Source: Acidobacteriota bacterium (GTDB lineage Bacteria; Acidobacteriota; Vicinamibacteria; Vicinamibacterales; UBA2999). Taken from it: a DNA stretch of 41,012 bases. The DNA is taken from positions 65,451 to 106,462 of the forward strand of contig VFZN01000009.1 in the NCBI GenBank assembly GCA_016871195.1, in the 5' to 3' direction. Positions 849 to 12,643 of the stretch are shown one piece after another. Made by a program: the position numbers and the translations under genes. Position 1 is the stretch's first letter; each line of letters begins with the position of its first letter. Below the pieces are notes generated by a model. It was not told the origin of the DNA. It ran no database searches and saw only the letters and a list, made by a program, of their open reading frames with translations.

Positions 849-1388
849 ATGCCCTCTGCTGCTCCCCGACCTGCGGCCCGTTCCCACGCGACGTCGCGCG
901 CATCATCCGCGGTGCTGGTGCCCGACTCGTTTCCGACGAAGATTCGCGGGCCGAAGGCCGACGACCCGCCCATCGAACTGCGCAAGCCGCTGCCGAAGAT
1001 TCAGCGGCGGCGATCGAAGCTGCATGGCTGGGGCGTGTTTGCGATGGAGCGCATTACGAAGAACACGCGCATCATCAACTACGCCGGGCAGCTCATTACC
1101 CAGAAGGAAAGTGATGTCCGCGAGGATCGCTACCTGCGCAAGGGCTGCATCTGGGTCTTCCGTGTCAATCGGAAGTGGAGCCGCGACGCCAACGCCGGCG
1201 GCAACGTGGCGCGATTCATCAACCACTCGTGTGTGCACAATTGCTATGTGCAAGTCATAGGTCGCACCATCTGGGTGCGTGCCGCCCGGACCATCAAGCC
1301 GGGCGAGGAACTGACCTACGACTACAACACCGAAGGCGACAAGACCATCGCATGCCGGTGTCGTCCCCACTGCAAGACCCGGCTCTGA
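849..1388 (+). CDS. SET-domain protein-lysine methyltransferase with post-SET zinc site
   Basis: This is a 179-residue protein. Residues 1-45 are a low-complexity Ala/Arg/Ser/Pro tail and about 50-160 are a SET domain. Visible motifs are GWGVF (60-64, SAM-binding loop), FINHSC (123-128) and LTYDYN (155-160). A C-terminal Cys cluster (C169, C171, C175) together with C128 matches the SET/post-SET zinc site. The family transfers methyl groups from S-adenosylmethionine to lysine in proteins; the target here is unknown. A chromatin-like or ribosomal protein is possible. The basic N-terminus resembles a nucleic-acid-binding tail. There is no clear Shine-Dalgarno, and TACACT lies 13 nt upstream of the ATG. 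The 3' end overlaps the start of the next gene by 37 bp. Confidence 0.85.
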   Translation: MPSAAPRPAARSHATSRASSAVLVPDSFPTKIRGPKADDPPIELRKPLPKIQRRRSKLHGWGVFAMERITKNTRIINYAGQLITQKESDVREDRYLRKGCIWVFRVNRKWSRDANAGGNVARFINHSCVHNCYVQVIGRTIWVRAARTIKPGEELTYDYNTEGDKTIACRCRPHCKTRL

Positions 1389-3835
1389 GGCGCAGGCAGC
1401 GTCGCGGGCTGATACTGGTCCTCGCCGTGCTCTGGTGTCTGCTGCCAGGGGCACGCCTGTGGCCGATGATGGCCCAGACGCTCAGCCCCCCGCTGGATTC
1501 GCGTGTCGCCCTGGATGTCGTCACGCTCGATGGCTCGCAGCCCGCAAGGGGCCAGCGCCGTGACCTGCTCGAGACCCCCACGATGCCGGGCTCGGTCATC
1601 AAGGTCTTCACCCTCGCGGCGGCGCTTGAACAGCAGGTCATCACACCAGCCACCGGGGCCGTGTGTCGGCGTCAGGTGACCGTGGACGGGGTGCGGTACA
1701 CCTGTGCCCATCCCGACCTCAAGCGGGCCATGACTCCGGCCGAGGCACTGGCGCATTCGTGCAACGATTTTTTCGTATCGCTGGCGCGGAGACTGCGACG
1801 CGCTGACGTCAATCGCATTCGTGTGGCCGCCGGGCTTCCCCCTCTGGCGGCCACCACACCGCTGGCCGCAGCGCTCGTGGGCCTGGATGGCCCGCGCGTC
1901 ACCCCCCGACACCTCGCGCAGGCTCTGGCTCGACTTGTAGCTGTCGGGCGACAGGCGTCTGTGCCAATGCGCGACGACACACGGGCGGTGCTGCGCGCTG
2001 GCCTCAGTGGGGCCGCGACCTACGGCACTGCCGCTGCATTTGCTGAGCAGCGTGTGCCCGCCTGGGCCAAGACCGGAACGGCGCCGATGCCGGGGGGCGG
2101 CATCGCCGGGCTCGTGGTGGCCTTGTGGCCGGCGCCCGCGCCGACGCACAGCCTTGTGGCCCTCGCACCCGGGGGAGCCGGCATCGACGTGGCCGCTGTG
2201 GCCGCCACCTGGCTCGCTGCGAATACGCGCACGGGCGCTCAGGTAAACACGACAGGACGTCAGCCCCCGCAGGCCCCACAGGCCCCACAGGCCCCCGGGA
2301 GCGAAGCCCCCAAGGGGGAGGGCCGCAGCACCGGACCGACTATCGCTGTCGGCCGCACCCTGCCCGACGGACGTGTGCGCATCGAGTCGCTGGCGATGGA
2401 TGACTATGTGGCGCAGGTGCTGGCTGGAGAGGGGCAGCCCCGGGCGGCACGCGGCGCGCAGGAGGCGCTGGCCATTACCGCGCGCACGTTCGCGGAGGCC
2501 AATCGCGGACGGCATCGCGCAGAAGGTTTTGACGTGTGCGACACGACGCACTGCCAGGTGGTGCGGCCCTCGACCTCAGTGACACGGGACGCCGCGCGGG
2601 CAACCTCAGGACAGGTGCTGCTCGACCGTGGACGTGCCGCGCAGGTGTTCTACTCGGCCTCATGCGGCGGTATGCCTGAACGGGCGTCGCATGTCTGGCC
2701 GGGTGCACCAGATCACGAACATCCGCACCGCGATGAGGCCCATGCCGGAGAAGTGCCATGGAGCAGTGAGGTGCGCGCCGCAGATATCGAGCGTGCCCTG
2801 CGGGCCACGGGTCGGAAAGGACGATTGCGCGACCTGACGATTGTCGGGCGCAATGCGACCGGGCGGGTCGCGCGACTCAGAGCCGAGGGACTGGTACCCG
2901 CCGACATCACGGGCAACGATTTCCGACTTGCCGTGGGGCGCATTGCAGGCTGGCAGTCGCTCAAGAGCACCGCCTTCGAGATACGTCGCGCGGGCACGAC
3001 GTTTCGCTTCGTGGGGCGGGGCTTTGGCCACGGCGTCGGCCTGTGTGTCGTTGGTGCCGGGAACCGCGCGCAGGCCGGGGCTTCGGCCTCCGATATCCTT
3101 GCCTTCTACTTTCCGTCGCTCACCATCGGTGCGCTTGCGGGCAAGACCCCGACACCGGTGACGTCCGGTGCCCCCGCGGCTTCGAGCGCGGAACCACCGG
3201 CGCCATCGGCCACACCGCGTGCGCGACTACCTGCGCCCTCAGCCGATGCGAGCACGGATGTGCGTCTGTCATTGCCGATTGAACAGGAAGGCGAACGCGC
3301 TGAATTGCTGGCCCTCGTGAGGAAGGCCCGCAACGACATCGCCGCAACCGCGGGCGTGACAGCACCGCCAGTGCTGACCGTCACGGTACACCCCTCTGTC
3401 GACGCATTCGGGCGCGCCACGGGCCAGCCCTGGTGGGTTGGGGCCGCAACACGGGGGCAGGACATTGCGCTGCTGCCGCCCCGCCTGCTGCGCCAGCGGG
3501 GAGACCTCGCGCGCACCATCCGCCACGAGGTGGCGCACGCACTGCTCGACGGACAGCTTGCCGGACGCCCGTTGTGGGTGCACGAAGGTCTCGCCATTCA
3601 CTTCAGCCGCGCTGACCTGCCGCGTGCTGGTTCGTCGGGTCCGGCCCCTTCAATGTCAGGCGCTCAGACCGCACCGCTCGGGCCGTCAACCAGGGGTGCA
3701 CGCCCCAGTTGTCCCACAGACGACGAGTTGAGGCGACCGGTGTCGGCGGGTGCCCAGCGAGACGCGTATGCGCGCGCGGAACAGTGCGTCAACGCCGCGC
3801 TGGCCCGTGGAGTGACCTGGCAGGCCATCAAGTAG
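1352..3835 (+). CDS. Transpeptidase-SpoIID-metallopeptidase fusion (cell-wall remodelling)
   Basis: The protein has 827 residues from the ATG at 1352, which lies inside the SET gene. The open frame upstream is a SET shadow, so I rejected the longer start. A basic N-terminus and a hydrophobic segment (about 19-35) form a signal or anchor. Domain 1 (about 45-295) carries all three penicillin-binding motifs: SVIK (S81, K84), SCN (136-138) and KTG (240-242). A Pro/Gln/Ala linker made from 9-bp repeats follows. Domain 2 (about 335-590) is SpoIID/LytB-like, with the presumed catalytic Glu360 in the YVAQVLAGE segment and a SCGG motif. Domain 3 (about 640-827) has HEVAH (725-729) and a downstream Glu745 in HEGLA, a gluzincin-type zinc site. 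It probably cross-links and cleaves peptidoglycan, or cleaves a periplasmic protein; that role is inferred. The domain combination is unusual. Confidence 0.85.
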   Translation: MPVSSPLQDPALRRRQRRGLILVLAVLWCLLPGARLWPMMAQTLSPPLDSRVALDVVTLDGSQPARGQRRDLLETPTMPGSVIKVFTLAAALEQQVITPATGAVCRRQVTVDGVRYTCAHPDLKRAMTPAEALAHSCNDFFVSLARRLRRADVNRIRVAAGLPPLAATTPLAAALVGLDGPRVTPRHLAQALARLVAVGRQASVPMRDDTRAVLRAGLSGAATYGTAAAFAEQRVPAWAKTGTAPMPGGGIAGLVVALWPAPAPTHSLVALAPGGAGIDVAAVAATWLAANTRTGAQVNTTGRQPPQAPQAPQAPGSEAPKGEGRSTGPTIAVGRTLPDGRVRIESLAMDDYVAQVLAGEGQPRAARGAQEALAITARTFAEANRGRHRAEGFDVCDTTHCQVVRPSTSVTRDAARATSGQVLLDRGRAAQVFYSASCGGMPERASHVWPGAPDHEHPHRDEAHAGEVPWSSEVRAADIERALRATGRKGRLRDLTIVGRNATGRVARLRAEGLVPADITGNDFRLAVGRIAGWQSLKSTAFEIRRAGTTFRFVGRGFGHGVGLCVVGAGNRAQAGASASDILAFYFPSLTIGALAGKTPTPVTSGAPAASSAEPPAPSATPRARLPAPSADASTDVRLSLPIEQEGERAELLALVRKARNDIAATAGVTAPPVLTVTVHPSVDAFGRATGQPWWVGAATRGQDIALLPPRLLRQRGDLARTIRHEVAHALLDGQLAGRPLWVHEGLAIHFSRADLPRAGSSGPAPSMSGAQTAPLGPSTRGARPSCPTDDELRRPVSAGAQRDAYARAEQCVNAALARGVTWQAIK
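2270..2296 (+). repeat. Three 9-bp tandem repeats encoding a Pro-Gln-Ala linker
   Basis: Three consecutive units of CAGGCCCCA (the last ends in C) lie in frame between the transpeptidase and SpoIID domains and encode a QAP-type linker. Copy number could vary without shifting the frame. Confidence 0.7.
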
Positions 3836-7223: not shown

Positions 7224-7946
7224 TCAGTCGGGCCGGGGATGACGCGCCACGGCCAACCGCAGTACTGCGGCGGCCCCTGCCGCGGCGATCACGACGAGGG
7301 CGCCCAGCTTCAGCGAGGCGACGGTTGGCTGCACCCACGTGGCCGGCAGGCCCTGGGGCATGGCGTACAGCAAATAGTGCTGGGGCATGACGACGGTCAC
7401 AATCACCACGGCGCTCATAACCAGCAGCCGCAGCGGATGCAGCGCGTGCCTCAGCGCATCGGTCAGCCATCCGGTTTGACGGTGGGCGACGAGGCCCGCA
7501 GCACCGACGCACAGCATCACGAAAGCAACCACCACAGAGGCGATCCACGAGCCGACCACTTGCACCGCCGAGAGCAGCGGCGTGATGTCGCTCAGGTCAA
7601 ATAGTGCGATGGCCCAGGCCGAGAGTTCGCCCTCGTGATCGCCGAGCCACTCTAGTCCGGTGTGCATGCCCAGCCACAGCACGTGCCCGATGACCAGCAG
7701 CACGAGCCACAGTCCCCACCACGTCACGCCCTCGCGGATCGCCGTGCCGTCGGCCCGATGCCAGGCCTGGACGGCGTTCGTCAGCGCCCAGGCCGCAGCC
7801 GTGTAGGTCGCCACCGCCAGGAGGGCCGAGAGTGCCAGTGTGAAGACGGTGGCTTCAGAGGTCGTCAACAGCCACCAGAACAGGCCCGCTGCGACGAGCC
7901 CGCCCGCGAGCAGCCAGAGGGTTGCCGTGAGGCCGGGGCGAATCAT
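7224..7946 (-). CDS. Polytopic membrane protein of the macroglobulin operon
   Basis: The protein has 240 residues from the ATG at 7946, which overlaps the macroglobulin stop in an ATGA quartet (7943-7946). That overlap decides the start. About six hydrophobic segments are visible (roughly residues 8-28, 34-55, 78-96, 122-165, 185-205 and 215-233). I do not recognise the family and see no catalytic motif. Translational coupling to the alpha-2-macroglobulin suggests they work at the same place, for instance as an inner-membrane partner or anchor; this is inference from position only. Confidence 0.75.
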   Translation of the reverse strand: MIRPGLTATLWLLAGGLVAAGLFWWLLTTSEATVFTLALSALLAVATYTAAAWALTNAVQAWHRADGTAIREGVTWWGLWLVLLVIGHVLWLGMHTGLEWLGDHEGELSAWAIALFDLSDITPLLSAVQVVGSWIASVVVAFVMLCVGAAGLVAHRQTGWLTDALRHALHPLRLLVMSAVVIVTVVMPQHYLLYAMPQGLPATWVQPTVASLKLGALVVIAAAGAAAVLRLAVARHPRPD

Positions 7947-10900
7947 TGGCGGCCTCCGGGTGTCACTGTCAGGGTCATCGGGGCCGAGGAGGCCGAGACC
8001 TGTGGAAGATACATGGGGCTGACCTGGGTCGGTGCCATGCGGAACGCGCCCTCTGTCGTCACCTTCACAAGGTAGACGTATTCGTAGCGGCCTCGCTCGA
8101 AATCCTGCTGGAAGAACACCGTGCGGTTGTCGCGGTACTCGACCTGCGAGCCCCACCACCACGCCACGCTGTCTGGCCTCTCGAGGGGATACGCCCACTG
8201 ATCGCGCACCGATTCCACGCCAGCCGGCAACGGGTCTTCCACCGACAGATAGCGCCAGTCGGTCGAGCCCGCGACCGTCAGCCGCACCAGCAGCACATCG
8301 CCGGGCGCGGCCGTGCCGTCGAACGCCTGCTCGCGATACACGATGCGAGAGTTGACCGTGACGGGCACCAGTCGTCTGTAGGCGCGTGTGACGGCCAGTT
8401 GTCTGCTGCCGATGCGGCCCTCTGCCGCCCGCGCATCGAAGAACGTGGCCGCGGCTGACCAGTACACCGACCCGCCCTCACGGGTCACCAGGCGCACCGT
8501 GTTCGCGCCGGTCTGCGCGTCGACCTCGAACTGCATCGGATCGGCCGCCACCATGTCGCTGGCCGAGAACGTGTGCCGGCCGGCCAGTGTGCCGTTCACG
8601 AAGACATCGACGCCGCCACCGGCCGTGGCCCGCTCGTTGCGGGCCTGCATGAACGCCAGCAGTCCATACAGGGCCATGGCCGTCCGTTTGGTCGTGCCCC
8701 AGTGGCTGCCGTGCCGGTTGATCAACAGCCAGCGGACTGCGCGTTCCAGCACGGCGTGGGTGTCGGTGCGGCGGGCCAGGGCCTGGACGGCAAAGGCGGT
8801 GGCTTCCACGCTGGTGTCGGCCGCATCGAACAGCAAGGCGTCGCTGTCGGCAGCCCACCAGCTCAGGTCGCCCTTCGTCTGCACGCGGGCCAGCAGCTCC
8901 CGTGCGGCCTGACTGGCGCGTGCGTCGCCGTGCTCGTCGAGCAGGGCCACCAGCTGCGCCTGCCCCAGGGCACTCATGCGATCGCGGGCGGCCCACGCAT
9001 CACTGAGGGCCGCCGCATGCGAGTAGGTGACGGCTCCCGACTCGGCCCACGACATGATGTCCGTCGACTCCGGCATGGCCCGTTTCAGCACATACGCCAT
9101 GTAGACCTTGAGGTCGGGCAGCGCGCGGGGATAGGTCACGTACATCCGGGCCAGTGCCCGCGCTCCGGTGTCGAGCCGGTATGTGTCGACGCGTGCCCCG
9201 GTGCGCCGGGCTTCGTCCATCGCCCACAGTGCATACGCCGACATGAACGGATGGTTGCCGTCGCTCTTCCACCAGCCCCATCCGCCATCGTCATGCTGCA
9301 TGTCACCGAGGCGTCGGAGGCCCGACGATATCTGGCGGTCGAGGGCGCCCATCCGCTCGGTCGGGGCCAGTTGCAGTGCCGTCAGGGCACGGGTGACCAG
9401 CACGTTGGGGATGAAGCTCGAGACGGTTTGCTCGGTGCATCCGTACGGATATCCGGTGAGATACTCGAGCGCCCCCAGCATCGACCCGGCGAGCGAGGGC
9501 GCGACCGACACCGTGATCCGTCGGCCCGCAGGATTTGCAGAGGCCGGCACGACGAGTTCGGCCGCAGCATCGCCGGCACCAATGACGGAGCCGGCTGCTG
9601 TCGCCGTGCGCCGTACGCCGAAGGGCTGCACCGGCAGCGACACTTCGACGGCGTCGCGATCAGTTTCGGTCTCGGCGTCGGCCGTGACAGTGGCTGTACC
9701 TGGTGTGCGGGCCACAAACGAAAAAACGTGTCGTGCCTCGCCGCCGCTGGCGAGCCCGATACCCGTGACGCGGCTCCGATCAGAGGTGGCCTCGAGCCCC
9801 GACGCGGTCACCGACACCGACGCCGTCCGTGCGTCCGGCCGATAGTTATGGACGATGGCCGGCAGGACGAGGGCGTCGCCCTCGGTGAGAAATCTCGGGG
9901 GGACGACGCGTACGATCAGGTCCTTGGTCACGGTCGTGCGGGCAACGCTGCTGCCGACACGGGTGTCGGTGGTCACCGCGCGCGCCGTGAGCCGCCAGGT
10001 GGTCAGCGCATCGGGATAGCGCACGGCGACCTGTGCCCGTCCCGTGGCGTCGGTCACAATGTCGGGCACCCAGTAAATCGCGTCGGGAAATTCCTTGCGC
10101 ACTGTGGGCTGGCTGGGCCGATCGCCCTTGAAGTCGGCCAGCGTCATCGGGCGACGGCGACGCGCCGTGAGCTGCAGGCGTTCGACGCCCGAGAATCCGG
10201 TGAAGAAGTATTCGCGCGAGAACGACGTGCTGACCCGACTGTAGTCGCGGCGGTAGAAGTAGCGGACAGGGTCAGGCGTGGAATCGGGCCGCACACCGAA
10301 GACGGCCTCGTCGATCACGGCCAGGCTCACCTGGGCCCGCACCGGGGCCCCGGTGTGGTCGGTGACCTGCACCGTGAAGCGCCCGGGCTCCTGCGGACGC
10401 GAGACCGCCTGCTCGGCCGTGATCGCGATCTGCAGCGTCTGCGCGGCGGCGGGCACACTCAGCCGACGCTCGGCCCGATAGAGCCGGCCGTCGCGCATGT
10501 AGACGAGGTTCGCGTATACATCACCGACGTCCCCCTCGGTGATAGGAATCTCAATCGCATCGGACGCGGTGAGGCGCAGCACCCGGTGCCACGCGACGTG
10601 CTGACCTTCCTTGGTCGCCAGCACGGCTCCGATGACGGTGTCCCCGCGCAGCAGCAGCCGTGCGGTGTCGCCGGGGGCATAGGTCTTCCGGTCGGCAATG
10701 ATTTCAACGAAGCGGTCACGCGACTCGTCGTCCAGGCTCGACTGCGGTCCCGGGACGAACAACCACAACTGATCGGTGATGCGGCGGCCGCCGTCCTCGG
10801 TGGCGATCGTGAGGCGGAAGGGGCCGGTCACGCCCGCCGGCAGCGTCACGGCCGCGGTCGCACGTCCGTCCTCACCTGTGGTCGCTGACGAGGTGCTGAG

Positions 10901-12643
10901 GCGCGTGGCCGTCGGTTCACCGTAGCCCACCTCGGGGTAGGTGAGTCTGTCGAGTTCGATGGCGATGGGCACGCGGGCCTGGGGCTGACCGGCATAGTCG
11001 GTCGCGCGAAGTTCCAGGTCCACCCGGTCGCCTGCCTTGACGATGGAGCGATTGGCCCGGCCGGCGATGAGAAAGCGTCCCCAGGTGGCGAGGACCTGCG
11101 TTGAGCCTGACACTTCGCGTGCACTGGCGTCGGTGACCCGGGCCTCGATGCGTGCGGTGATGTCCCGCGCCGACTCGCCGGGCGGGACGGGAATCACGAG
11201 CTCGGCGCGCCCTGACTCGTCGAGCCTGGCCTCACCCTGAGCGGTCTGGTCGCCGCCATACCAGTACGCCCCGCCTTCCTCGGCGCCCTCGTCCCAGCGC
11301 AGCGGCGAGAAATAGGGCTGCTGGCTCAGCACCCACTGCACGCGCCCGTTCGCCACGGGCTGACCGAAGTAGTACCGGGCCTGCACGGTGACGCGTGCCG
11401 ACTGGCCCTGCACAATCATGCGGGTGACCGGTGTCACCGTGACTTCGAACTCGGGCTTGCGGTACTCCTGCACCTCGAATGCGCCGAGGGCCTGCTGCTC
11501 GCCGCTCTGCACGCGAAGCGTATAGCTGCCGAGCGCACCTGCGGCGGGGATGGGAAACGACAGCGCGACAGCCCCGAAGGCATCCACCGGCAGTTGCCGC
11601 CGCACCAGCACCTTGTCGTTCGGATCGCTGGCGACGACTTCCACGGTGGTCCCGTCAAACGGCCGCAGCGCATCCTGCTCGCGCCACCGCAAAATGCCCT
11701 TCATGTGCAGGGTCTGGCCCGGGCGGTAGATCGACTTGTCGGTGTAGAGATAGCCCACTAGCTCGCGGGGCTGCGCCCGCAGCGCATACGCCCCTGGATC
11801 GGTGACCGCAATCGCCTCGCCGCACTGCGCCAGGCCCAGAATCTGGTCGATATCGCCGGGCAGCGACGCGCGCCATGTGCCGTCCGGCTCGGTGGTCCCT
11901 GAGGCGATGGCCTCGCGTCGGACCATGGCCTGCACCTGACAGCCGGCCTGGGGTTCGCCCGTGAAGCGATCGGCGGCAAACAGCAGCAGCTCGCCCGGAG
12001 AGATTTTCGTGACCAGTCCGACGTCAGACACCACCACCACCGTGTAGGCGCGGAGGCGGTCGTGTGTGGCTTCCACCAGATAGAGGCCGGCGCGGTCGAC
12101 CGGCAGGGGAATGCGCCGGAACTCGGTGTCGCGATAATTGGGCAGCAGTTCACGCCAGGACGTCACCAGCTGATCGGGATTGAGCAGTGGCACCTGCGCG
12201 AACGTCGACACATCGAGCTGCACACGCTGCGCGGCGCTGGCGCGGTCGTCGGTCACGCGGCGTGCGGCACGATAGCGTGGTGACACCTGGGCCCGCAGCA
12301 CATTCCGGATGCGCGCGCGCTGCGCGCGCTTCCACGAGGTCAGCCGCTCGATCCACGACTGCTCCTGCGGCACCTCCATCGGGGCATCCGTGCCGAACTG
12401 GTGCGGATCGGAGAGGCCGGCGAAAAAGCGGAACGGATCGCGCACCCGATACACACGCACGTCGAGATGTTCGACCCGGCGGAAGGTGAGGAAGAAGTGC
12501 GGCGCATCGCGTGTGGTGAAGGTTTCGCTGGTCGACAGCGAAAATGCCGGGCCGGCATTCTCGGCCGTCGCAGGCTCCTGAGCCTCGGCGGCCAGGGCGC
12601 AGGCCAGCAGCGCAATCAGAGACAGAAGAACGCGGCGTGTCAT
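7943..12643 (-). CDS. Bacterial alpha-2-macroglobulin with thioester motif
   Basis: The protein has 1566 residues from the ATG at 12643; the open frame continues upstream but overlaps the DUF1175 gene. An N-terminal signal peptide (about 1-22) contains a Cys at 14 that could be a weak lipobox. Macroglobulin MG domains follow, with segments typical of the family such as YLYTDKSIYRPGQTLHMKG. The thioester sequence YGCTEQ has Cys1069 and Gln1072, so the covalent trap appears intact. An alpha/alpha toroid-like region follows, and a C-terminal beta domain ends the protein. Bacterial macroglobulins are periplasmic and trap attacking proteases. The gene is coupled by 4-bp overlaps to DUF1175 upstream and to a membrane protein downstream. 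A DUF1175 neighbour is typical of the E. coli yfaS type, which as I recall usually lacks the thioester. Confidence 0.92.
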   Translation of the reverse strand: MTRRVLLSLIALLACALAAEAQEPATAENAGPAFSLSTSETFTTRDAPHFFLTFRRVEHLDVRVYRVRDPFRFFAGLSDPHQFGTDAPMEVPQEQSWIERLTSWKRAQRARIRNVLRAQVSPRYRAARRVTDDRASAAQRVQLDVSTFAQVPLLNPDQLVTSWRELLPNYRDTEFRRIPLPVDRAGLYLVEATHDRLRAYTVVVVSDVGLVTKISPGELLLFAADRFTGEPQAGCQVQAMVRREAIASGTTEPDGTWRASLPGDIDQILGLAQCGEAIAVTDPGAYALRAQPRELVGYLYTDKSIYRPGQTLHMKGILRWREQDALRPFDGTTVEVVASDPNDKVLVRRQLPVDAFGAVALSFPIPAAGALGSYTLRVQSGEQQALGAFEVQEYRKPEFEVTVTPVTRMIVQGQSARVTVQARYYFGQPVANGRVQWVLSQQPYFSPLRWDEGAEEGGAYWYGGDQTAQGEARLDESGRAELVIPVPPGESARDITARIEARVTDASAREVSGSTQVLATWGRFLIAGRANRSIVKAGDRVDLELRATDYAGQPQARVPIAIELDRLTYPEVGYGEPTATRLSTSSATTGEDGRATAAVTLPAGVTGPFRLTIATEDGGRRITDQLWLFVPGPQSSLDDESRDRFVEIIADRKTYAPGDTARLLLRGDTVIGAVLATKEGQHVAWHRVLRLTASDAIEIPITEGDVGDVYANLVYMRDGRLYRAERRLSVPAAAQTLQIAITAEQAVSRPQEPGRFTVQVTDHTGAPVRAQVSLAVIDEAVFGVRPDSTPDPVRYFYRRDYSRVSTSFSREYFFTGFSGVERLQLTARRRRPMTLADFKGDRPSQPTVRKEFPDAIYWVPDIVTDATGRAQVAVRYPDALTTWRLTARAVTTDTRVGSSVARTTVTKDLIVRVVPPRFLTEGDALVLPAIVHNYRPDARTASVSVTASGLEATSDRSRVTGIGLASGGEARHVFSFVARTPGTATVTADAETETDRDAVEVSLPVQPFGVRRTATAAGSVIGAGDAAAELVVPASANPAGRRITVSVAPSLAGSMLGALEYLTGYPYGCTEQTVSSFIPNVLVTRALTALQLAPTERMGALDRQISSGLRRLGDMQHDDGGWGWWKSDGNHPFMSAYALWAMDEARRTGARVDTYRLDTGARALARMYVTYPRALPDLKVYMAYVLKRAMPESTDIMSWAESGAVTYSHAAALSDAWAARDRMSALGQAQLVALLDEHGDARASQAARELLARVQTKGDLSWWAADSDALLFDAADTSVEATAFAVQALARRTDTHAVLERAVRWLLINRHGSHWGTTKRTAMALYGLLAFMQARNERATAGGGVDVFVNGTLAGRHTFSASDMVAADPMQFEVDAQTGANTVRLVTREGGSVYWSAAATFFDARAAEGRIGSRQLAVTRAYRRLVPVTVNSRIVYREQAFDGTAAPGDVLLVRLTVAGSTDWRYLSVEDPLPAGVESVRDQWAYPLERPDSVAWWWGSQVEYRDNRTVFFQQDFERGRYEYVYLVKVTTEGAFRMAPTQVSPMYLPQVSASSAPMTLTVTPGGRQ

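Follow-up and report, generated by a model that had tools for sequence, protein, structure and literature searches.

An acidobacterial protein with transpeptidase, SpoIID and HExxH peptidase domains and its tendency to be inherited with an alpha-2-macroglobulin gene

Introduction

The alpha-2-macroglobulin (A2M) of Escherichia coli is known to trap proteases. In a number of bacteria, genes for type-I A2Ms adjoin genes for the penicillin-binding protein (PBP) PBP1C and, in the passages of the literature cited here, it has been proposed that this pair traps proteases and mends the cell wall (PMC4498604, PMC5764988). Here we describe a gene of an Acidobacteriota bacterium of the class Vicinamibacteria, found in a stretch of 41,012 nucleotides that was analysed as a whole and is called the window hereafter (assembly GCA_016871195.1, contig VFZN01000009.1, positions 65,451 to 106,462 of the forward strand). 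The product of this gene joins a penicillin-binding transpeptidase (TP), a SpoIID/LytB domain and an HExxH peptidase domain, and its TP-containing form tends to be inherited together with an A2M gene.

The A2M/PBP1C pair, represented in E. coli by yfhM and the PBP1C gene, resembles the acidobacterial locus in that the gene for a CXEQ-type A2M lies near the gene for an apparently exported PBP. It differs in its PBP, a minimal TP of the PBP2/SpoVD kind that is devoid of a glycosyltransferase and either fused to SpoIID and gluzincin domains or encoded next to them, and in the presence of an additional membrane protein of about six helices. A type-I A2M (GCTEQ in the window) is thus found near a PBP gene, but the partner is not PBP1C. 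We tentatively read the locus as an acidobacterial counterpart of the A2M-PBP1C pair that uses a different, composite wall enzyme. A second precedent is the mycobacterial RipA-RpfB-PBP1 set, which brings together an endopeptidase, a lytic transglycosylase and a PBP, as separate proteins joined by protein contacts rather than as one chain in the account cited (PMC2912383). A fusion of SpoIID, penicillin-binding TP and HExxH domains was not found among the open-licence papers listed, where no search was aimed at a link between A2M and SpoIID or between A2M and acidobacteria. Nor did any paper turn up there that deals with SpoIID in Acidobacteriota, and the one match for SpoIID and penicillin-binding in multidomain proteins concerns polyvalent proteins of phages and plasmids.

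Results

One chain carries three domains with intact catalytic motifs

The interval 1352-3835 (forward strand) translates as a single stop-free frame of 827 amino acids (aa). From the N-terminus, the chain comprises a hydrophobic segment, the minimal TP, the SpoIID/LytB domain and an HExxH domain of gluzincin type, an architecture read from the open frame, homologues and family profiles. The sole strongly hydrophobic segment in a simple hydropathy scan (residues 18-40; 1403-1471, forward strand) is predicted to be a signal peptide or membrane anchor. The start codon is uncertain: the ATG at 1352 overlaps the end of an upstream SET-domain gene, and several relatives could start exactly at the stop of that gene. 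A chance or frame-shifted open reading frame (ORF) was ruled out by homologues that are 54-59% identical. A first-pass annotation, made from the DNA letters, had read three active-site sets in this frame; all of the motifs were found at the residues that it named (S81, SCN 136-138, KTG 240-242, E360 and E745), SCGG lying at 437-440 and HEVAH at 725-729, and the Pfam Transpeptidase and SpoIID profiles both scored above their cut-offs. That one apparently exported chain carries three domains in a conserved order, their catalytic residues intact, is confirmed.

The TP domain (residues 48-292 as cut for analysis; 1493-2227, forward strand) was assigned from profiles and a structure model. It matches Pfam Transpeptidase (PF00905) over residues 70-245 (E 3.2e-12, 46.7 bits against a cut-off of 22.1) and contains the motifs S81-x-x-K84 (SVIK), S136-C-N138 and K240-T-G. 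A sequence search of the PDB with the window protein returned PBP2/FtsI-type chains. The model computed from a nine-sequence alignment has a mean pLDDT of 66.3 over its whole length (pTM 0.39) and values mostly between 75 and 97 in the TP part; this part aligns with class B PBPs, the best VIA match being the PBP2 of Helicobacter pylori (Z 27.1, rmsd 2.8 over 254 residues). The window protein falls below the class B equivalog cut-offs (pbp2_mrdA, 50.9 bits against 455; spoVD, 23.9 against 688), and it has no room for a pedestal domain, just 47 residues lying ahead of the TP cut, of which residues 18-40 are hydrophobic; neither the equivalog score nor the N-terminal pedestal of a class B high-molecular-weight PBP is found. 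No glycosyltransferase domain was found in the chain with Pfam or NCBIfam profiles. As the TP lacks room for a pedestal and the chain lacks a glycosyltransferase, the protein should not polymerise new strands.

Residues C105, C118, H120 and C137, the last being the X of SxN, constitute a candidate zinc site (1664-1762, forward strand). They are invariant in 39/39 aligned TP domains, all of which have the ligand pattern of zinc-binding serine PBPs (Cys/Asp, Cys/Asp, His, Cys of SxN). The 39 sequences were thinned from 47; members from the window's class had been pre-filtered for S-K-S-N-K-T, so that the residues of SxxK, SxN and KT are conserved by choice and the four candidate ligands are not. 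In the portions of the reports cited, a Cys-Cys-His-Cys(SxN) pattern makes up the zinc site of Clostridioides difficile PBP3 and SpoVD (PMC9334274), and a related site of Acinetobacter baumannii PBP2 is required for function (PMC9974482). A profile of the 39 members finds C. difficile PBP3 (7rd0, 8e-27) as its first match; compared with PBP3 and SpoVD, the TP described here is shorter and has no pedestal, and its metal site is putative.

The SpoIID/LytB domain (residues 330-597; 2339-3142, forward strand) was delimited by profiles and by alignment with C. difficile SpoIID. It matches Pfam SpoIID (residues 343-423; E 3.3e-13, 50.5 bits against a cut-off of 23) and NCBIfam SpoIID_LytB (TIGR02669; residues 343-592; E 2.4e-36, 126.1 bits against 83.3) and has the motifs LAGEG, which includes E360, and SCGG (437-440). 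Sequence matches in the PDB are 4rwr (9e-13) and the C. difficile structures 5i1t and 5txu, the organism being taken from the structure search record for the former and from the numbering for the latter. In these alignments, the predicted catalytic E360 corresponds to C. difficile E101 and C396/H400/C401 to C140/H145/C146; when these residues are lost, zinc or activity is affected to differing degrees according to the source text cited (PMC6221140). The domain is therefore akin to the SpoIID/LytB lytic transglycosylases of Bacillus subtilis, C. difficile and Waddlia, and is a predicted lytic transglycosylase itself; it differs from them in being fused to a TP and a peptidase and in not being the spore equivalog, the stage II sporulation protein D model (TIGR02870) giving 80.7 bits against a cut-off of 234.75. 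The catalytic Glu is kept in 85/85 scored copies of the window's class (87 rows, 2 unscored) and in 16/16 proteins with TP and SpoIID-HExxH outside it; 7/8 proteins of family f26, described below, have another residue in place of the central His of Cys-His-Cys. SpoIID is the constant part of the protein family.

The HExxH domain (residues 634-827; 3251-3832, forward strand; H725-E726-x-x-H729 and E745) was identified from VIA and Foldseek comparisons and from the Peptidase_MA_2 matches of relatives. No Pfam or NCBIfam family matches the window copy at an E below 0.01; Peptidase_MA_2 (PF13485) is matched by 7/49 relatives (best 3.9e-5) in an alignment thinned from 62 sequences, whose class rows were pre-filtered for HEHE and have these residues conserved by choice. 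A model of residues 325-827 has a mean pLDDT of 68.7, with values of ~90 over much of the HExxH domain. Foldseek placed SpoIID structures first (E 1.9e-8), but with an rmsd of 14-17, so that the SpoIID part of the model appears poorly placed; LTA4 hydrolase (LTA4H) came after them (probability 1.00, E 0.04). Among the 50 VIA matches listed for the HExxH domain, most are M1 aminopeptidases and some are collagenases (Z 10.9-12.6 over ~155 residues; rmsd 2.7-4.3, bar one at 9.2). By its relatives and its predicted fold, the domain is gluzincin-like. It shares HExxH and a downstream Glu with the M1, M61 and Peptidase_MA_2 peptidases, and departs from them in its small size, in the 15 residues that separate the second His from the Glu, and in the lack of a significant family match of the window copy.

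Two further observations concern this domain. In a group of 14 TP-less rows (L065-L071, L073-L078, L080), the gluzincin domain is kept (94-142 bits) with the HExxH Glu changed to Ala in 14/14 and both His replaced, perhaps representing a conserved non-catalytic pseudo-peptidase. A hypothetical protein on a Meiothermus plasmid (NZ_CP021131.1:71436-71735) is 42% identical to residues 651-752, placing a gluzincin-like domain outside acidobacteria.

Fused and split forms of the protein in Acidobacteriota

Patterns derived from the window protein, run against named genomes, retrieved 11 loci, exclusively in metagenome-assembled genomes (MAGs) of Acidobacteriota; in 7 of them all three domains occur in the same order, which answers the search for homologues that the first-pass annotation had proposed. 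The family profile is matched by 187 of the 193 genomes of the window's class, many by SpoIID alone. The loci fetched from the class yielded at least 92 distinct ORFs with a domain match, and at least 29 ORFs of the class hold TP, SpoIID and HExxH in one frame; these counts refer to fetched loci and are lower bounds for genomes. Two of the fused ORFs are incomplete, namely L083, whose HExxH domain is broken over two frames and was left unscored, and L101, with partial TP and SpoIID matches. Removed before counting were the decayed L084, an ordinary PBP of the window's own genome (L002), the partial rows L012, L086 and L098, and the SpoIID-only paralogues L099, L100, L102, L103 and L120-L123.

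In a sample of the whole phylum, 182 of 396 genomes had a family match. Twenty loci fetched from this sample comprised 8 fused (families f28, f38 and f80), 8 split (f26) and 4 with SpoIID only. In f26, the TP gene lies directly before a SpoIID-HExxH gene, touching or overlapping it, in 8/8 fetched loci; two more genomes of f26 fall outside these loci, G199 without a match and G423 with a short match to SpoIID. The TP and HExxH motifs are intact in 16/16 fused or f26 loci outside the window's class. The existence of both fused and adjacent-gene forms shows that TP and SpoIID-HExxH belong together. Other rows of the phylum sample (such as G004:C24, G406:C1 and G302:C4) have frames of ~980-1,085 aa with a partial SpoIID match, which suggests other SpoIID architectures in the phylum. 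Spread outside Acidobacteriota was judged from the single scan of named genomes and a plasmid scan. In the latter, 6 records matched, each with one domain and none covering 80% of the query; plasmid carriage of the three-domain protein was rejected on these grounds.

Linkage of the TP-containing form to A2M and membrane-protein genes

The window contains a bacterial A2M gene (7943-12643, reverse strand), recognised by matches to MG2, A2M_BRD, A2M, TED and bMG10, whose product of ~1,566 aa from the likely start has the type-I thioester motif GCTEQ. A gene for a membrane protein of 240 aa and about six helices (7224-7946, reverse strand), with relatives near TP-containing loci, overlaps it by 4 bases. 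In four scanned f26 loci, the next genes likewise encode a ~250-aa membrane protein and an A2M. In 8/8 fused loci of the other families there is a related membrane protein, of ~280 aa where the sequence was read. CXEQ is also present in 5 of 10 scanned loci; several others hold a partial A2M gene or none.

The A2M search was made with bMG10 (PF17973) in 77 + 21 genomes, and positions were then compared. An A2M gene lies within 6 kb of 35/47 TP-containing copies (at 688-4,382 bases) and of 0/45 TP-less copies. Of the latter, 37 are without an A2M, and the genomes of the remaining 8 carry one at another place; in 3 of these 8, the genome also holds a TP-containing or contig-edge copy linked to that A2M, and in the other 5 the only A2M has a ~2,000-aa frame. 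The contrast is seen within single genomes (G050, G047 and G051), where the TP-containing or edge copy is linked to A2M and the TP-less copy is not. Among contig-edge copies whose TP could not be scored, 5/6 are A2M-linked and those five have HEHE. Four TP-containing copies lie in genomes that lack an A2M of the linked type: two are damaged (L006, with SIAT in place of SxxK, and L083, with HExxH over two frames), whereas L004 and L013 are intact. As A2M is common in the phylum (at least 167 of 297 genomes, most frames among the matches listed being of ~1,800-2,200 aa), its mere presence is no evidence and its linkage is; the classes of ~1,600 and ~2,000 aa were separated by open-frame length only.

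The membrane-protein gene was found in 30/47 TP-containing and 0/45 TP-less loci, with flanks of often just ~1.5 kb. In hhalign comparisons of three groups of these proteins, two scored 94.5% and 70% against the window group and 4.7% against each other. The three groups may be related, although hydrophobic composition may inflate these figures. SpoIIM was rejected as the identity of the membrane protein, there being no Pfam match among the members scanned. Since the TP form usually adjoins A2M and membrane-protein genes, the three-domain protein appears to be a component of a larger module.

The SET-domain gene (849-1388, forward strand) lies upstream of most fetched copies in the window's class, whether or not TP is present. 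Because it adjoins both kinds of loci, it was set aside as a functional partner, and the SET protein is probably functionally separate from the three-domain protein.

Joint absence of the TP and of the HExxH site

A tree of the SpoIID domain alone (quick IQ-TREE run, without bootstrap) has TP-containing forms on most deep branches, which makes loss of the TP the apparently simpler reading than gain. The root of this tree was not inferred, and the SpoIID-only rows do not make one outgroup, L120 and L123 lying beside fused proteins of other families. Both traits could be scored in 85 rows: 44 have TP and an intact HExxH, 15 have the intact site without TP, 26 have neither, and none combines TP with a degenerate site; HExxH is thus degenerate in 0/44 TP-containing and 26/41 TP-less rows. 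Plain parsimony requires 6 changes for each trait. A loss-only reconstruction gives 7 losses of TP and 8 of HExxH, all 8 on branches that end without TP. These branches account for 21% of the eligible tree length, and the crude chance of this outcome is ~1e-4 for six losses and 4e-6 for eight.

Relics of the TP persist as fragments in L026 and L061. The possibility that TP was lost from the fusion and kept as a separate gene was rejected: in 25 TP-less genomes, TP-profile matches (E up to 1e-12) fell in frames of more than 600 aa, as in canonical PBPs, with the exception of two frames of 406 and 419 aa; none was shorter than 400 aa.

Wall enzymes of the source genome

Besides the window protein, the source genome encodes five PF00905 proteins: an FtsI/SpoVD-like PBP (below cut-off), a PBP2, two PBP1A-family proteins and an OXA-like protein. 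None of the five reaches the PBP_1c cut-off, and the two PBP1A-family proteins are above theirs. The only SpoIID (PF08486) match is the window protein, and Amidase_3 matches occur in two places. The OXA-like protein (L128, C13:59852-60403) is a 435-aa frame in which ~195 further residues precede a class D beta-lactamase domain resembling OXA (220.9 bits; cut-off, 250).

Discussion

The tendency of the three-domain protein to be inherited with an A2M gene suggests a cell-wall defence and repair module. As type-I A2Ms elsewhere pair with PBP1C, the protein may replace PBP1C in the acidobacterial version. We tentatively favour this reading, at slightly short of an even chance: the protein would be the periplasmic peptidoglycan-editing partner of type-I A2M in acidobacteria. 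The first-pass annotation had imagined a self-contained remodelling machine. That idea is not supported, for the chain has no glycosyltransferase and no room for a pedestal, SpoIID persists without TP or an intact HExxH, and A2M and membrane-protein genes are the usual neighbours.

Judging from the families of its domains, the system could trap proteases, cut the wall and restitch it. With its hydrophobic N-terminus, the chain would be exported and either stay at the inner membrane or be released into the periplasm. Upon a breach of the envelope, A2M, given its domains and CXEQ motif, would trap the intruding protease. In the damaged wall, SpoIID would cut glycan strands, preferably those from which amidases have removed the peptides if it follows SpoIID biochemistry. 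The TP would acylate through S81 on D-Ala-D-Ala stems and either re-crosslink or trim the peptides; having no pedestal and no glycosyltransferase, it would presumably work on the existing wall and not on new strands. The gluzincin may cleave peptide or protein at the same site, with debris, trapped protein or a regulator as candidate substrates.

Several points weigh against a repair module built on A2M. In the window itself, the A2M gene is ~4 kb from the three-domain gene, on the opposite strand and convergent, with other genes between. Twelve of the 47 TP-containing copies have no A2M inside 6 kb: one has it at 26.5 kb, 8 on another contig (in G107 of the larger type only) and 3 have none. 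L004 and L013 have no A2M, yet their TP and HExxH are intact. The membrane-protein profiles were built from TP-containing, window and contig-edge loci. Two of the 8 HExxH losses share a branch with a TP loss, where either may have come first, and independent-pairs sign tests, underpowered with 2-3 usable pairs, were not significant, so that the case for joint inheritance is built on the pattern and on crude odds from branch length. With a pTM of 0.39 and 0.41 and low confidence across much of SpoIID, the two structure models do not fix the relative placement of the three active sites. More generally, gene neighbourhood is not function, and the defence and repair role of PBP1C is itself put forward as a hypothesis in the passages cited (PMC4498604, PMC5764988).

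It is possible, if rather doubtful, that the protein is a general remodelling enzyme of growth or division, a make-before-break editor of septal or lateral wall, and that A2M is a mere passenger neighbour. In the sections cited, a SpoIID homologue is active at the division septum in Waddlia (PMC6635528), SpoIIDMP is coupled to wall synthesis during engulfment (PMC5158138), and mycobacterial RipA, RpfB and PBP1 bring activities of the same three kinds together through protein contacts (PMC2912383). SpoIID is also kept in copies that lack TP and a linked A2M. However, a passenger is not expected to follow one domain as A2M follows the TP, in 35/47 copies with it against 0/45 without.

Alternatively, the TP could be a penicillin-binding sensor or a peptide-binding targeting module that performs no cross-linking, SpoIID being the working enzyme. 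The domain is only ~245 residues long, without a pedestal; some members match BlaR1 (7/39) and class D beta-lactamase (5/39) models; and L006 has lost the SxxK lysine with the rest of the protein intact. On the other hand, the pbp2_mrdA and spoVD models are both matched by 39/39 members, and SxxK, SxN and KT[GA] are intact in 31/33 long rows of the class, the exceptions being L006, whose genome also lacks the linked type of A2M, and the decayed L084 (from G109), which reads AVAH/ACN/KGG and has a truncated SpoIID. These features make a sensor or targeting module unlikely.

A more elaborate scheme, which we regard as improbable, is a complement-like immune module of the periplasm: the gluzincin would cleave or prime the A2M bait, the thioester would bond covalently to wall or intruder at the site of damage, TP and SpoIID would excise and restitch the marked wall, and the membrane protein would hold all of these at the membrane. 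Finally, it is most improbable that HExxH is an autoprocessing protease separating TP from SpoIID, as its association with TP and the variable Pro/Ala-rich linkers between the domains of relatives might suggest, for 15 TP-less rows retain HExxH and autocleavage is largely refuted by f26, where TP is already a separate gene and HExxH is still intact in 8/8 fetched loci.

If the protein is indeed the wall-editing partner of A2M, its significance is twofold. Why A2M genes stand beside PBP genes is still given as a hypothesis in the literature passages cited (PMC4498604, PMC5764988). The "trap and repair" idea becomes testable in a lineage whose PBP is a different one, joined in one chain to an enzyme that cuts the wall and to a protease, and where losses of the TP, of the linked A2M, of the membrane protein and of the HExxH site tend to coincide. 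Moreover, a single polypeptide may physically couple wall cleavage with cross-linking chemistry, as make-before-break models assume.

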